IMG/VR virus record: IMGVR_UViG_3300037507_002279
Span: 1 to 26,458 of that record
Reading direction: 5' to 3' (one strand)
Length of the DNA stretch: 26,458 nucleotides
Origin: a virus
This document shows positions 3,037 through 24,961 of this stretch, piece by piece. Position numbers and translations under genes: made by a program. The notes beneath the pieces are model-generated. The model was given only the letters and a program-made list of their open reading frames with translations. It did not search any database and had not been told where the DNA came from. Each line of letters starts with the position of its first letter. Positions within the stretch are counted from its first letter, which is position 1.

Positions 3037-3417
3037 TTAGTGGATATCGATTTTGACTGTGGTACTCTTGGGGCTGGTTTGGAGTTCGATGTACAACACC
3101 CCATCTTGTAATACTACACTTGACACGTGGATGTCCGGTTCTAGGGTCCAGGTTTTGGTCCAGGATCTGTGGGCGAGTCCACGGACCAGATAAACACGAG
3201 TGTCTTCGGCTTCCTTGGTGCCCTTGACAGTCAAGGTGGTACCGGTTAAACTCACGTCCAACTCACTACGGTCCCAGCCACTTACCGCAATTTCGATTAC
3301 ATAGTGGTCCTCGTCTTTGTAGAGGTTATACGGTGGGTATTGATTGGTTGCACGATTCATCATGTTCTCAAAACCAATCATGGTCTGGTAGAGGGGGTCT
3401 AGCATTGTTGTCTTCAT
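3037..3417 (-). CDS. Small heat shock protein, Hsp20/IbpA family
   Basis: A 126-aa alpha-crystallin-domain chaperone. The N-terminal stretch DPLYQTMIGFENMMNRA is very close to the IbpA/IbpB N-terminal arm, YPPYNLYKDEDHYVIEIAV opens the crystallin beta-sandwich, and GVLYIEL is the conserved end of the domain. The IbpA-type C-terminal I-x-I anchor is approximated by the terminal VKIDIH. Such proteins hold unfolding proteins in an ATP-independent way. The gene lies 9 nt upstream of terS, with an AGAGGATCAACT ribosome binding region, so it is co-transcribed with packaging genes and may protect capsid or packaging proteins during late infection; that role is inferred. Phage-borne Hsp20 genes are known, for instance in cyanophages. 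Confidence 0.92.
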   Translation of the reverse strand: MKTTMLDPLYQTMIGFENMMNRATNQYPPYNLYKDEDHYVIEIAVSGWDRSELDVSLTGTTLTVKGTKEAEDTRVYLVRGLAHRSWTKTWTLEPDIHVSSVVLQDGVLYIELQTSPKSTTVKIDIH

Positions 3418-5752: not shown

Positions 5753-6067
5753 ATGGCTGAAAAGAACCTGAACTATACCCCTGAGCAAACCGCACAAATG
5801 GTGCAGGACTACCAAGTGGGTGTTACCGTGGAGATTATCGCTCAAGGGCTGGGCAAGACCGTTCGTTCGGTTGTGGCCAAGCTCTCACGTGAGGGTGTTT
5901 ACAAGCGTAAGGAATACACCACCAAGACGGGTGAGGCCCCGGTGGCCAAGGAATACTTGGCCGATCAAGTCGGGGCTTTGGCTGGGTTGAGTGAGGGTGA
6001 AATCGACTCACTCACCAAGGCAAACAAGACTGCACTGGCCAAGATTCTGGCCAAGCTGAGTGGTTGA
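5753..6067 (+). CDS. HTH DNA-binding protein, paralog A
   Basis: A 104-aa protein. Residues about 8-50 (NYTPEQTAQMVQDYQVGVTV followed by EIIAQGLGKTVRSVVAKLSR) form a helix-turn-helix of the sigma-region-4/GcrA-like type, in which RSVVAKLSREGVY is the likely recognition helix. The C-terminal part ends in a conserved helix (EGEIDSLTKANKTALAKIL). Three more copies lie at 10573, 12375 (minus) and 19869. The start at 5753 is fixed by alignment with the paralogs and by GGAG 8 nt upstream. It has its own near-consensus promoter. A role as transcription regulator or nucleoid-type protein is inferred; no target is known. Confidence 0.85.
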   Translation: MAEKNLNYTPEQTAQMVQDYQVGVTVEIIAQGLGKTVRSVVAKLSREGVYKRKEYTTKTGEAPVAKEYLADQVGALAGLSEGEIDSLTKANKTALAKILAKLSG

Positions 6068-7578: not shown

Positions 7579-7755
7579 ATGACACAATATATCTTCTGGG
7601 TTGACACTGCCTATATTGGCTGGATTCACATTACTATTGGGGCATTTTCCAAAGAATCTGCCATGAAAATTGCCCAGGATTATCAAGACCGAGGCGAGTT
7701 CCGGTCTTGGGAATATCGGGGTATCTTGAGCATATTTGATTATAACAACACTTGA
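7579..7755 (+). CDS. 58-aa protein, unknown
   Basis: MTQYIFWVDTAYIGWIHITI with a CGGAG site 5 nt before the ATG. A longer in-frame reading from 7396 overlaps two coupled genes and is less likely. The middle (GAFSKESAMKIAQDYQDRGE) suggests a small alpha/beta fold with a basic/aromatic end. Last gene of this cassette. Confidence 0.7.
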   Translation: MTQYIFWVDTAYIGWIHITIGAFSKESAMKIAQDYQDRGEFRSWEYRGILSIFDYNNT

Positions 7756-10572: not shown

Positions 10573-10899
10573 ATGGCTGAAAAAGTTGTCAACTATACCC
10601 CTGAGCAAACTGCCAAGATGGTAGCAGATTACGCTCAAGGCGTCACCGTGGAATCTATCGCAGAATCCATGGGCAAGACCGTTCGTTCGGTTGTGGCAAA
10701 ACTGTCCCGTGAGGGTGTTTATAAGAAGAAGGAGTATGTGAGCAAAACTGGCGAAAAGCCGGTGAAAAAGGATGCTCACGCTGATGCAATCGGCGCTATC
10801 CTCCAACTGAGTGAGGGTGAGATCGACAGTCTCACCAAGGCAAACAAGTCTGCCTTGAAGACTATTTTTGAGGCACTGGCAAACAGCCGGCCTGTTTGA
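10573..10899 (+). CDS. HTH DNA-binding protein, paralog B
   Basis: 108 aa, closest to paralog A: the N-terminal HTH region (NYTPEQTAKMVADYAQGVTV through GKTVRSVVAKLSREGVY) is nearly identical. The C-terminal helix EGEIDSLTKANKSAL is also conserved, while the middle linker differs. Start fixed by alignment and GGAG 8 nt upstream. The 80-nt leader between promoter and start contains no obvious structure. Probably a DNA-binding regulator; it and paralog A may bind the same sites. Confidence 0.85.
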   Translation: MAEKVVNYTPEQTAKMVADYAQGVTVESIAESMGKTVRSVVAKLSREGVYKKKEYVSKTGEKPVKKDAHADAIGAILQLSEGEIDSLTKANKSALKTIFEALANSRPV

Positions 10900-12048: not shown

Positions 12049-12375
12049 CTAATTGGGCTGATTTTTTTGATGTGCCACCGCTTCCAATGCACGGATTATC
12101 AACACCAACACGCCTTTATTGCACTTTTCCAAGCTCTCCAGCCGATCTACTTCAACCTCCAACAATTCTGCCACTTGCTCAATGTAGACCTCCTTCTTGA
12201 CGGGGGTCTCACCACGCTTGTTGAGGTAACGAGCCTTCTGGTAGACCCCAAGGCTGCTCAGCTTTGCGATCACACTGCGAGTGGGTACACCTAAGCTGGC
12301 TGCTATAATTTCAACTGAGGTCCCCTCACGGTATTGGGCTACAACCTGGTCTGCGATCTCTTTGGTGTACTTCAT
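12049..12375 (-). CDS. HTH DNA-binding protein, paralog C
   Basis: 108 aa, the most diverged of the four paralogs. It keeps the HTH (YTKEIADQVVAQYREGTSVE, then IIAASLGVPTRSVIAKLSSL and GVYQKARY), the GETPVKKE linker and the C-terminal LESLEKCNKGVL helix. Start at 12375 is chosen by alignment and because it overlaps the stop of the upstream 258-aa gene (ATGA). It is the only paralog on the minus strand and the only one coupled to another gene, which suggests its level follows that of the 258-aa protein. Confidence 0.85.
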   Translation of the reverse strand: MKYTKEIADQVVAQYREGTSVEIIAASLGVPTRSVIAKLSSLGVYQKARYLNKRGETPVKKEVYIEQVAELLEVEVDRLESLEKCNKGVLVLIIRALEAVAHQKNQPN

Positions 12376-19868: not shown

Positions 19869-20171
19869 ATGTCTGAGGTCAAGAATGTGAACTATACCCC
19901 TGATCAAGTGGTGACGATGATCACCATGTATGGCGAAGGTGTTGGCGTAGAGCAGATCGCGCAAGCAGTTGGCAAGACTGTTCGCAGTGTGGTTGCCAAG
20001 CTGAGCCGTGAGGGCGTGTACGTGGCCAAGACCAAGACTGCCTCCAGCCGCCTGACCAAGGAGGACCTGGTGGCTCGTATCGAGGCGGGCATGGGCTTTG
20101 AGGCCGGTGTGTTGGACAGCCTGACCAAGTGCAGCCGCGACCAACTGGTGTTGATCGCAGCCCGGTTCTGA
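19869..20171 (+). CDS. HTH DNA-binding protein, paralog D
   Basis: 100 aa with the same HTH (VNYTPDQVVTMITMYGEGVG, then QIAQAVGKTVRSVVAKLSRE) and a shorter C-terminal part ending LDSLTKCSRDQLVLIAARF. AAAGGAG lies 7 nt upstream. Codon use is richer in G/C at third positions than in paralogs A and B, with several CTG and CGC codons, so it may have a different history. It sits alone at the head of the RNA-rich island, with duplicated promoters in front and a fused terminator-promoter behind. Confidence 0.85.
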   Translation: MSEVKNVNYTPDQVVTMITMYGEGVGVEQIAQAVGKTVRSVVAKLSREGVYVAKTKTASSRLTKEDLVARIEAGMGFEAGVLDSLTKCSRDQLVLIAARF

Positions 20172-20175
20172 GGTC

Positions 20176-20224
20176 AAGGCAACAGAAATTTTGATTTGAA
20201 GTCTGTTGCCTTTTGTGTCATAAT
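20176..20224 (+). promoter_or_regulatory. Terminator of HTH D fused to promoter of next RNA
   Basis: AAGGCAACAGA/TCTGTTGCCTT (20176-20186, 20202-20212) forms an 11-bp terminator hairpin. The promoter TTGAAG (20196-20201), 17 bp, CATAAT (20219-20224) overlaps its right half. Confidence 0.75.
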
Positions 20225-20230
20225 AATGTT

Positions 20231-20510
20231 TCTGTTGATGAGGAGACCCTTGGCGATCCTTGTGCGACAAAAATATCGGTAGTGGTAAGCCCCAACAGTC
20301 AGAGGCACTATCCATGTGGCAATAGAGCTGATTTTCTCTGAATATCAGCGCGAGTAACTCTCTGAGCTAGACGTGGAAAGGGCTGTATGTGAGTGGCAGC
20401 CATGAAAGCTAGATACAGATAGGAGTCGTTACCTATCCAAGGTCTGTTTCGATTCCCTGTTGTACAGGGTTGATAATTGTTGTCTTGAAAAGCGATTGTC
20501 AACCCTGTAT
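20231..20510 (+). ncRNA. Candidate structured noncoding RNA, ~280 nt
   Basis: No convincing gene on either strand. Helices visible by eye: GCTGAT/ATCAGC (about 20328-20349), GGCTG/CAGCC (about 20380-20402) and GATAGG/CCTATC (about 20419-20438). At the 3' end two alternative hairpins exclude each other: CCCTGT-TGT-ACAGGG (20455-20469), or ACAGGGTTGA (from 20464) with TCAACCCTGT (to about 20508). It starts from its own promoter and ends where the next promoter begins. A regulatory or structural RNA is likely, but no known class is recognised. Confidence 0.5.
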
Positions 20511-20513
20511 AAT
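20485..20513 (+). promoter_or_regulatory. Promoter upstream of tRNA-Glu
   Basis: TTGAAA (20485-20490), 17 bp, TATAAT (20508-20513). The -35 lies in the loop, and the -10 at the end, of the ACAGGGTTGA/TCAACCCTGT inverted repeat. Confidence 0.8.
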
Positions 20514-20519
20514 AGAGTT

Positions 20520-20741
20520 TGTTGGGTGATATAGGGCACTGTCTTGTACAGTGATAGCATCTTGATGGCAAAGGAATTTCCTTAGTTGCCGCCCACTTTT
20601 TAGGGTATGTCAACCGCCTCAGCGTTGACCGCAGGTATGCGTCAAATATCCGCTAGTGCCTAGCCAGCACGGTGTTATCCCAACATACCGGGCTGATGCG
20701 GTACCTGGCGCTGGTACACTGGAACACGTAACCAGTACTTT
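20520..20741 (+). ncRNA. Structured leader RNA before tRNA-Glu
   Basis: About 220 nt without a gene, read by the 20485-20513 promoter. Hairpins: CACTGT/ACAGTG (about 20540-20556), GGCAA/TTGCC around a GGAA/TTCC helix (about 20566-20591), GTCAAC/GTTGAC (about 20609-20630) and GTAC-TGG/CCA-GTAC next to the tRNA. It could be processed off by RNase P, or be part of a larger RNA that contains the tRNA. No known class recognised. Confidence 0.45.
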
Positions 20742-20817
20742 GGCTCTATCGTCTAACGGTTAGGACGCTGCCCTTTCAAGGCGGAAACGAGGGGTTCGAT
20801 TCCCCCTAGGGCTACCA
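20742..20817 (+). tRNA. tRNA-Glu (anticodon TTC)
   Basis: 76 nt with encoded CCA. Anticodon loop CTTTCAA, T-loop TTCGATT and D-arm all fit. The acceptor stem pairs GGCTCTA with TAGGGCT and so has G-U pairs at positions 1 and 4, which is unusual. It reads GAA/GAG codons. Confidence 0.9.
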
Positions 20818-20942
20818 TATTGAAACACATTAGACGGGTGTTGTGCTGCAGGCCGCGGGCCGGGCCGGCATTCGGTGCTCCTGGCAGACTGCGAATATCC
20901 ACTATGCCAGTAGTGGAACATATTTAGTGTGTTTCAATATGG
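20815..20942 (+). ncRNA. tRNA-tail RNA element 1
   Basis: 128 nt beginning in the CCA of tRNA-Glu. The ends CCATATTGAAACACA and TGTGTTTCAATATGG are perfectly complementary (15 bp, extendable by about 5 weaker pairs). The GC-rich inside contains CCACTA/TAGTGG. The same terminal helix with a different inside follows tRNA-Leu (25639-25764). It may be an RNA domain, a processing signal, or a small mobile element with inverted ends. Confidence 0.6.
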
Positions 20943-20957
20943 TATAAAAATTTACAC

Positions 20958-20986
20958 TTGAACTACAATCCCGTTTGTACTATAAT
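20958..20986 (+). promoter_or_regulatory. Sigma-70 promoter of the large noncoding RNA
   Basis: TTGAAC (20958-20963), 17 bp, TATAAT (20981-20986); start near 20993. Confidence 0.85.
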
Positions 20987-20992
20987 AATATC

Positions 20993-22088
20993 ATGAGTTG
21001 AGAAAAGGGTGTCAGCGGTTGCCGAGGCCACGCCCGCCACCGGCAATGCGACTTAATTGACAGGAAATCCGAGTGTCAGCCCTCTACAAACCTTTTAGAA
21101 TTTGGAGAAGGTCTTAATGCCTAAGATTGAGAGCTTCTAAACGCAAGCAATTCCATAGCCCATTGACAGACAAGGTCCCGAAGATGTGAGTAGGCAAACT
21201 CAATAATTCGTAGCGAACCGTAATGAATAGATGGTAGGGAACCAAGCAAAGTAGAACTCTGTTTCTCCAAATCCTAAAATGTTTAATTCGTAGATTGTAC
21301 TGTTGAGGTTTCGGCAGACAGGTTAACTCCCTAAGCCTTCGATGGTCAGGCCCACGTCTCGTGGTTAATACACAATACCAGACCAGCTTCTTTCAGGCTA
21401 CGGTAAACGCTTTCGTCCACGGTGAGGTGACGTTAAACTCGCGGACAAAGAAGTCTGTAAAATACAGCTATCTTCTAACTCAGTGCCACAAACACTGAAC
21501 AACAAGAGCAGGAATCTACTCCTGTAATGTGGGTCTGGAATCCCACTAGCGATCAACTAATGAGAGGCGACTCTGTTAGATTGATTAATAATTCGCCAAG
21601 GTATGAGGATTGGAAATCAGATACCGGGTCACTTTTGCAGCTACGACCATAATGAAACTGCACTGTCGAAAACATAGCAGCCTCTGGTGCAGATCGAGGG
21701 GCGGGGGCGGAATGTCCCGGACAGATCAAATCTAGTTGGTACACCAAAACCGCAATACCGAGAGTTTTACGACACTCCTCTTGCGTACCAAAACCAGTGG
21801 GATTGTGGGGTCCTAATAGCCCAGACGTGATAGATTGAAGTTGCCGTAAACTAACTTTCCCCGGAGTCAACCGGGTCACAAAACACTTAAATCCGTACAG
21901 CTAGCGTAAACTAGAACACTGTAGTGGGGAGGATGGAAAATCCCCGATGCCTGGCCAACAAGCCGAATACGTACTCGTAGAATACGCCCGACTAAAAACT
22001 GTGGCTGTCTGAATTTCTACAGGCAACAAAAACTCGATCGGTTCAAAAGCCACCCTGCTGTTAAAGGCACGGTGGCTTTTGTTTTATC
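20993..22088 (+). ncRNA. Giant structured noncoding RNA candidate, ~1.1 kb
   Basis: A complete transcription unit (promoter 20958-20986, terminator 22045-22088) with stop codons in all frames and no ribosome-site/gene pair. The main visible helix joins 21093-21110 with 21262-21279 (TTTTAG, a mismatch, then 11 bp ending in one G-U), extended by AAAC/GTTT and CTAC/GTAG. Local hairpins include CCACG/CGTGG (about 21352), CTGTA/TACAG (about 21454), CAGTG/CACTG (about 21481), CAGGA/TCCTG (about 21509), GTGGG/CCCAC (about 21529), GGTAT/ATACC (about 21600), CTGCAC/GTGCAG (about 21658), CGCAA/TTGCG (21751/21781) and CCCGG/CCGGG (21860/21871). Length, phage origin and tRNA neighbours recall GOLLD and ROOL RNAs, which assemble into large RNA cages, but I cannot confirm membership of a known class. 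Confidence 0.8.
22045..22088 (+). terminator. Terminator of the large noncoding RNA
   Basis: AAAAGCCACC (22045-22054) pairs with GGTGGCTTTT (22071-22080), followed by GTTTTAT: a typical intrinsic terminator. Confidence 0.9.
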
Positions 22089-23965: not shown

Positions 23966-24961
23966 ATGTTTAATCAACAAATCAACAGAGTGGGCTTTGC
24001 GTGTAAGTTCGAAGAACTAAGTGTCCCCAACATCAAGACCACCACAATTACGTGGTTGAATTCAGCCCCACGTCAAAAAGCTGTCGAAAAGTTGACAGAC
24101 CTGATGAAGCACAATGTGGTGGCTTTAATGAGTCAGGTAAACCATGTGGGAGCCCTGTCACACGGTCGGCGTATGCTGCGTATAAGCAGCGATGTGTTAC
24201 CAGCCTATACTCACGACGACTGGAGCTGGTTCTACTGGGAACACGACACCGTCAACTTTCTAGAACGTGAATTGATGAAGGTAGGCAACCGTGCTCGAGA
24301 ATTAGACGTGCGTTTGAGTTTTCACCCCGGCCAGTTTTGTGTGTTGGGATCTGAGAATCCACAAGTTGTGGAGAATAGTATCCAAGAATTTGAGTATCAC
24401 GTAGACCTCATCCGATATATGGGGTATGGCAAAACCTTCCAAGACTTCAAGTGTAACATTCACATTGGTGGCAAAGCTGGCCCTACAGGTTTCAAAGCAG
24501 CACTGAAGAAGCTGAGCCGTGAAGCACGCAACGTAATCACTGTCGAGAACGACGAGTTCAAGTGGGGAGTCGAAGCCAGCCTAGAGCTGGTTGACCACTG
24601 TGCCCTAGTCTTAGACATTCACCATCACTGGATCAGAACAGGCGAGTATATCGAGCCCTCTGACCCACGAGTTCTAAGGATGATGGAATCCTGGCGTGGC
24701 GTCCGCCCCGTCATTCACTACTCATTGAGCCGAGAAGAAGTAATCGGTGAGTACTGGGATTCTGACCTCCTGCCAGATCTAACTGAATTGGTGGGTACTC
24801 ATGGATACACAAAAACCCAACTACGTGCTCATAGCGATTATTATTGGAATATGGCCAGTAATCGTTGGTGTTATCAGTTTAGCAACACACATGATATTAT
24901 GCTGGAGTCGAAGATGAAGAACTTGGCAGCGGATAAATTCTGTCTTGAAGTTGGTCACTGA
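23966..24961 (+). CDS. UV DNA damage endonuclease (UVDE family)
   Basis: A 331-aa TIM-barrel nuclease with the family motifs in order: RLSFHPGQF (HPGQF 120-124), NIHIGGK (164-170), ITVENDE (191-197) and VLDIHHHW (215-222). The His and Glu residues form the three-metal site. UVDE enzymes nick DNA 5' of cyclobutane dimers, 6-4 photoproducts and some abasic sites and so start an excision pathway that does not need UvrABC. The N-terminus MFNQQINRVGFACKFEE fits the family start IRLGYACxN. In a phage it would repair sunlight-damaged genomes after entry, which suits a surface-water habitat. It has its own promoter. Confidence 0.92.
   Translation: MFNQQINRVGFACKFEELSVPNIKTTTITWLNSAPRQKAVEKLTDLMKHNVVALMSQVNHVGALSHGRRMLRISSDVLPAYTHDDWSWFYWEHDTVNFLERELMKVGNRARELDVRLSFHPGQFCVLGSENPQVVENSIQEFEYHVDLIRYMGYGKTFQDFKCNIHIGGKAGPTGFKAALKKLSREARNVITVENDEFKWGVEASLELVDHCALVLDIHHHWIRTGEYIEPSDPRVLRMMESWRGVRPVIHYSLSREEVIGEYWDSDLLPDLTELVGTHGYTKTQLRAHSDYYWNMASNRWCYQFSNTHDIMLESKMKNLAADKFCLEVGH

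Follow-up and report, generated by a model that had tools for sequence, protein, structure and literature searches.

What does a phage transcribe from a stretch of ~1.1 kb that begins with a promoter, ends with a terminator and appears to encode no protein? To our knowledge, few classes of very large structured RNA are known from bacteria and phages, and most of these are without a known function. We address the question for a locus in a 26.5-kb phage fragment whose terminase (TerL) is up to ~49% identical to the terminases of T5-like Demerecviridae. The whole fragment (IMG/VR record IMGVR_UViG_3300037507_002279, 26,458 nucleotides) is referred to here as the window. A first-pass annotation of the same DNA had proposed that the locus produces a giant structured RNA, either GOLLD-like or of a new class. 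The parts of the locus, the tRNA-Glu unit next to it and the helix-turn-helix gene upstream lie on the plus strand.

Transcription unit and coding potential

The first-pass annotation described a near-perfect promoter, a classic terminator and nothing plausible encoded between them, and each of these descriptions agrees with our analysis. The promoter is of the sigma-70 type, TTGAAC-17-TATAAT, and is located at 20958–20986, with a counterpart in relatives of the locus; the intrinsic terminator, a AAAAGCCACC hairpin followed by a T tract, is located at 22045–22085 and is like the terminators in relatives. With the start taken from the promoter and the end from the terminator, the predicted large non-coding RNA extends over ~1.09 kb (20993–22085). 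Promoter-like sites are not rare by count alone (13 found vs. 7.2 expected in 5 kb). Both a TTG...TATAAT promoter and a CAAAAGCC-hairpin-GGCTTTTGTTTT intrinsic terminator are present at nearly all relatives with complete loci.

No reading frame is conserved across the ~1.1 kb. The longest open reading frame in the unit has 108 aa, lies on the minus strand, and is within the length expected in shuffled sequences (P=0.125). This frame is the argument for a missed coding gene, which is ruled out by its chance length together with its disruption in L003, the nearest relative. An assembly artefact would have to recur in ~30 independent contigs, i.e., in the whole family described below, and we regard a missed gene or an artefact as scarcely credible. 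Elsewhere in the window, a promoter-like site TTGAAG-17-CATAAT is followed by ~250 nt of non-coding sequence (20196–20480), possibly a further small RNA.

Relatives, comparative evidence for folding and known RNA families

The search for relatives was seeded by a 19-base block, AAATACAGCTATCTTCTAA, and variants thereof. A loose search pattern yielded mostly noise from coding genes, and members were retained by the presence of the hairpin, the GCTATC sequence and the arms downstream of it. The resulting family consists of 30 non-redundant loci in IMG/VR, window included, all of them in viral contigs, and the total length of the RNA varies from ~0.7 to 1.24 kb. A Flavobacterium match in bacterial genome contigs (L105) lacked any family context and was taken as chance. 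The window and L003 constitute clade A, which has two sequences; a pattern search for further clade-A relatives gave only L104, which is the same record as L003. In L003 the flanking protein is 82% identical and the same RNA follows the same tRNA-Glu, and the two RNAs share conserved blocks with variable loops between them. BLASTN searches of the window RNA and of the RNA of L147 against 50,697 phage records gave no match. The phages T5, My1 and VspSw_1 are without the 5' module described below, and their match to the core is not significant.

The folding energy of the window RNA as a single sequence is ordinary (z=-1.5), and the case for structure is consequently a comparative one. In the alignment of the window with L003, the alifold consensus energy has z=-8.2, and there are 24 compensatory pairs, whereas 40 column shuffles gave 12.6 +/- 3.4 and never more than 18. 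The family-wide comparison, in which no tree was used, concerns two domains, namely a core and a 5' module. For the core (22 sequences) the covariation score is 0.480, compared to at most 0.098 when the pairing partner is slid; 95% of cells are paired, and both sides have changed in 57 cells vs. at most 13 after sliding. The score of the 5' module is 0.416 in 11 sequences (at most 0.083 slid) and 0.535 in 21 copies (at most 0.158). Hold-out models, trained without the window and L003 and then run on the window, detect the 5' module at 21007–21082 (model R2, 58.3 bits, E=1.9e-11) and the core at 21439–21552 (model R3, 69.6 bits, E=4.2e-12), where all model E-values are rough due to short calibrations. 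The earlier proposal of a giant structured RNA without a gene is borne out by homologues, covariation and the absence of a conserved frame.

The individual structures listed in the first-pass annotation fared differently. The 17-bp long-range helix (arms 21093–21110 and 21262–21279), which encloses clade-specific hairpins, pairs at 17 of 18 positions, including one G-T pair, with one A-C mismatch; L003 retains the helix, with a single compensatory change from U-A to C-G. The four GTAAAC or GTTAAAC motifs are all present at their reported positions and are identical in L003, but as a family-wide feature they were not seen. The two halves of a suggested pseudoknot, GGCGA (21566–21570) and TCGCC (21593–21597), exist as well; the pairing is unsupported because they fall within a variable segment, 21553–21735, that does not align with L003. 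This segment is followed by a 3' domain (21736–21960) that is strongly conserved with L003 only and is specific to clade A.

Two known families deserve comparison. GOLLD and ROOL are phage RNAs that occur near tRNA islands and form cages, and GOLLD in particular is a non-coding RNA of phages and prophages, often >800 nt long, near tRNAs and sometimes with tRNAs inside it (PMC12286853). The window RNA is similar to GOLLD (RF02032) in being phage-encoded, as judged from TerL, in having a tRNA-Glu nearby and in exceeding 800 nt, and to ROOL (RF03087) as a phage non-coding RNA of complex structure near tRNA islands. It differs from GOLLD in having a conserved core and a 5' module of its own and from ROOL in being ~2x the length of the ROOL model, and it is matched by neither model. 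The GOLLD model has no match in the window and reaches at best 7.5 bits elsewhere, vs. a cut-off of 150, in the family and terminase-relative records tested (a result without a positive control). The ROOL model likewise detects nothing in the window, in L003, L004 and L081, or in 14 other records of the family, while giving 130 bits on its positive control, the known megaplasmid pMP118 (NC_007930). Hence the earlier suggestion, if taken to mean membership in GOLLD, is unsupported. The phage origin, the length and the adjacent tRNAs could also be read as signs of a strongly diverged member of GOLLD or ROOL that forms an RNA-only cage; with both models blank in the window, and without a meaningful score in any of the tested relatives, this is very improbable. 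The term "GOLLD-like" would be fair only as an analogy (phage, ~1.1 kb, tRNA neighbours).

The other suggestion, a new class, agrees with the Rfam scan of the window, at gathering and at permissive thresholds, in which tRNAs alone exceed the cut-off; in six relatives, tRNA and tmRNA aside, no credible family was found. Nor did we find a description of the family in the open literature, subscription papers being mostly outside our scope. We conclude from these comparisons that the window unit very probably makes a large, folded, phage-encoded non-coding RNA of an apparently unrecorded family.

The GOLLD cage is a 14-mer, and an RNA unrelated to GOLLD and ROOL could act alike, i.e., as an RNA-only homo-oligomer. 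The large, modular, multi-helix architecture is consistent with this idea and the conserved loops (AAAGAA, and GTAAAC in clade A) could serve as contacts, but we consider it unlikely: the relatives vary widely in RNA length and in their 3' domains, so that a fixed quaternary fold fits poorly.

The tRNA-like core, the 5' module and the hammerhead motif

The core domain as modelled comprises ~114 nt (21439–21552). It contains a hairpin with a conserved AAAGAA loop (GGAC-AAAGAA-GUCU, 21443–21456), all 4 pairs of which covary in the 22 sequences, and a predicted tRNA-like cloverleaf (21467–21550) recognised by models R1 and R3 and supported by covariation. Within the GCUA/UAGC closing stem of the cloverleaf there are three arms: a UCU/AGA arm (GCC/GGC in L167), a second hairpin where a tRNA has its anticodon arm and, in the T-arm position, a 5-bp hairpin, which in the window is GUGGG/CCCAC.

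The likeness to tRNA points to tRNA-Glu. When the R1 core model was run on 69 kb of sequence containing many tRNA types, the best full-length matches outside the family were the tRNA-Glu genes of L237 and L239 (26.5 and 22.4 bits). The third-best non-family match was a part of the window tRNA-Glu (16.1 bits), and tRNA-Arg (11.7 bits) and tRNA-Asp (9.3 bits) were among the weaker ones. R3, which was trained separately, matched tRNA-Glu alone outside the family. Common to the core and tRNA-Glu are the closing stem with three arms, the block CTATC[A/G/T]TCTAA and the position of the 5-bp T-arm-like hairpin, which in both adjoins the 3' strand of the closing stem. In contrast to a tRNA, the core has a closing stem of 4–5 bp and a variable anticodon-like hairpin, is embedded in a 1-kb RNA and scores under the tRNA cut-off; the Rfam tRNA model gives 16.5 bits (E=0.026, cut-off 29) for the core of L102 and does not find that of the window. 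The core cannot be an ordinary tRNA, because it has neither the GG of the D-loop nor a fixed, conserved anticodon and because the T-like arm contains large insertions in a few members (L130 and L167). From the sequence, the topology and the shared layout of module and tRNA-Glu, we infer that the core is probably a tRNA-Glu gene that ceased to work as a tRNA and became part of a larger RNA.

The 5' module (~72 nt, 21007–21082) is composed of a GGG/CCC closing stem, a 3-bp stem, a hairpin and a 6-bp stem, as supported by the R2 hold-out and by covariation. A second copy of it (20524–20594; R2, 36.8 bits, E=4.4e-7) heads the leader of the upstream tRNA-Glu unit, which has a promoter with 11 of 12 consensus positions (20485–20513) and in which the tRNA-Glu (UUC) itself, at 20742–20817, lies 176 nt before the point where the large RNA is expected to start. 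L003 also has a copy at the head of its tRNA-Glu leader (7622–7693), and in four records where no core was detected (L038, L044, L040 and L057) the module is found upstream of tRNA-Glu. Copies in the first position, including those leading tRNA-Glu, start mostly 8–22 nt past TATAAT (48 in L040), and a second module type (GGGUGUUAUGAG) is located further inside transcripts. A 15-bp inverted repeat, CCATATTGAAACACA...TGTGTTTCAATATGG, delimits a segment directly 3' of the window tRNA-Glu (20815–20942).

An element with a comparable placement is the HK022 put RNA, which is ~70 nt long and acts in cis on RNA polymerase; putL is located just downstream of its own promoter (PMC9378689). The 5' module is likewise a structured element of ~70 nt right after a phage promoter, the likeness being one of size and position and not one of sequence comparison, and its stem plan differs from that of put.

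The resemblance of the core to tRNA-Glu and the modular setting that it shares with the tRNA-Glu unit could also mean that the locus is decaying filler of a tRNA region, namely a dead tRNA-Glu copy with a structured leader and no function of its own. This is quite improbable given that promoter, terminator and core have been retained in phages that diverged strongly and that compensatory changes in the core and the module show selection on structure.

Between the 5' module and the core, 21 relatives contain a hammerhead consensus of the order stem I-CUGANGA-stem II-GAAA-stem III-GUC^-stem I. All three stems show covariation, with 42 cells changed on both sides in the 21 relatives vs. at most 23 in 1000 shuffles, and a relaxed version of the pattern has a background of 2 matches in 3.5 million other strand-bases. 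In L130 and L167, which are among the 21, stem II is preceded by one additional U. The motif was sought in the window and L003 and is absent from both. It resembles a type I hammerhead ribozyme, which ends at stem I, in its CUGANGA, GAAA and GUC elements and covarying stems, and differs in a ~50-nt insert in stem III and in its Rfam score; the best Hammerhead_1 score among the relatives is 10.7 bits (L092) vs. a cut-off of 34, perhaps because of that insert.

Neighbouring genes and proposed role

In the window, the gene at 19869–20171 encodes a small helix-turn-helix protein; downstream of it come first the tRNA-Glu unit and then the large RNA. Genes of this type flank the RNA in most relatives, one of them upstream on the same strand and often a second on the downstream side in convergent orientation. 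The proteins are paralogous, and their match to the helix-turn-helix is weak. The large RNA may be a partner or sponge that controls the activity of these adjacent proteins, a proposal that we find rather doubtful. In its favour, besides the flanking arrangement, some records have a tRNA-like element immediately after a further copy of the helix-turn-helix gene. However, the proteins look DNA-binding, the window has the upstream gene alone close by, and clade A as well as the group of L089, L092 and L211 have other neighbours.

The degenerate tRNA-like elements just 3' of helix-turn-helix genes are G049:12886-12956, G042:4553-4623 and L248:2663-2754; those of G049 and G042 exceed the Rfam cut-off for tRNA, at 37.7 bits, and receive no ARAGORN call, and in one by-eye reading the anticodon loop is UUUUAUU. 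As a general rule this arrangement was rejected, being found in few records among 117 downstream segments checked. The window has four helix-turn-helix paralogues in 26 kb, at 5753–6067 (+), 10582–10899 (+), 12049–12369 (-) and 19869–20171 (+), with approximate outer limits. In intergenic DNA of L087, L116, L130, L033 and other relatives, a 10-mer, GACCCTAAAC / GTTTAGGGTC, recurs at promoters, at terminators and inside the RNAs, in a manner that recalls operator or stoperator sites.

Several further genes were noted in passing. The window encodes a GIY-YIG endonuclease adjoining the terminase (775–1260), an Hsp20-like protein (3037–3417) and a UV-damage endonuclease, UvdE (23966–24958). Two relatives carry a phage tmRNA, permuted according to ARAGORN (L092:7674-8028 and L101:5526-5941), with the tags ANDEVFALAA and ANDSQFALAA; that of L092 is also matched by the Rfam models beta_tmRNA and tmRNA_permuted.

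The reading that we prefer, and consider reasonably likely, is that of a large phage non-coding RNA that combines a transcript-leading module with a domain derived from tRNA-Glu. As for the mechanism, we suggest tentatively that the module acts on the nascent RNA and that the core, as a binding or decoy domain, engages a tRNA-handling factor. The 5' module would fold on leaving RNA polymerase and act in cis, either keeping the polymerase processive or shielding the 5' end, and long untranslated structured transcripts, i.e., the tRNA-Glu unit and the large RNA, would thereby be completed and accumulate. The tRNA-like domain of the finished RNA may then, in the course of infection, bind or occupy a host factor that handles or cleaves tRNA; phage tRNAs are known to be able to evade or blunt tRNA-targeting defences (PMC11555353, PMC12409363). 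In sister phages the hammerhead motif could cleave itself and part the leader from the core, a step for which the clade of the window has no motif.

More generally, the family could conceivably represent a modular class of phage RNA with a put-like promoter-proximal module, a payload derived from tRNA-Glu and, in most members, release by a hammerhead. The tRNA-like core, the repeated promoter-proximal module and the hammerhead motif of the sister clade had all escaped the first-pass annotation. The locus belongs to an apparently new family of ~30 members, with domains supported by covariation and with recognisable parts, namely the tRNA-like core, the hammerhead motif and the transcript-leading module. 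These parts make the function of the RNAs directly testable, whether as self-cleavage, as an interaction with proteins that handle tRNA or as an influence on transcription.
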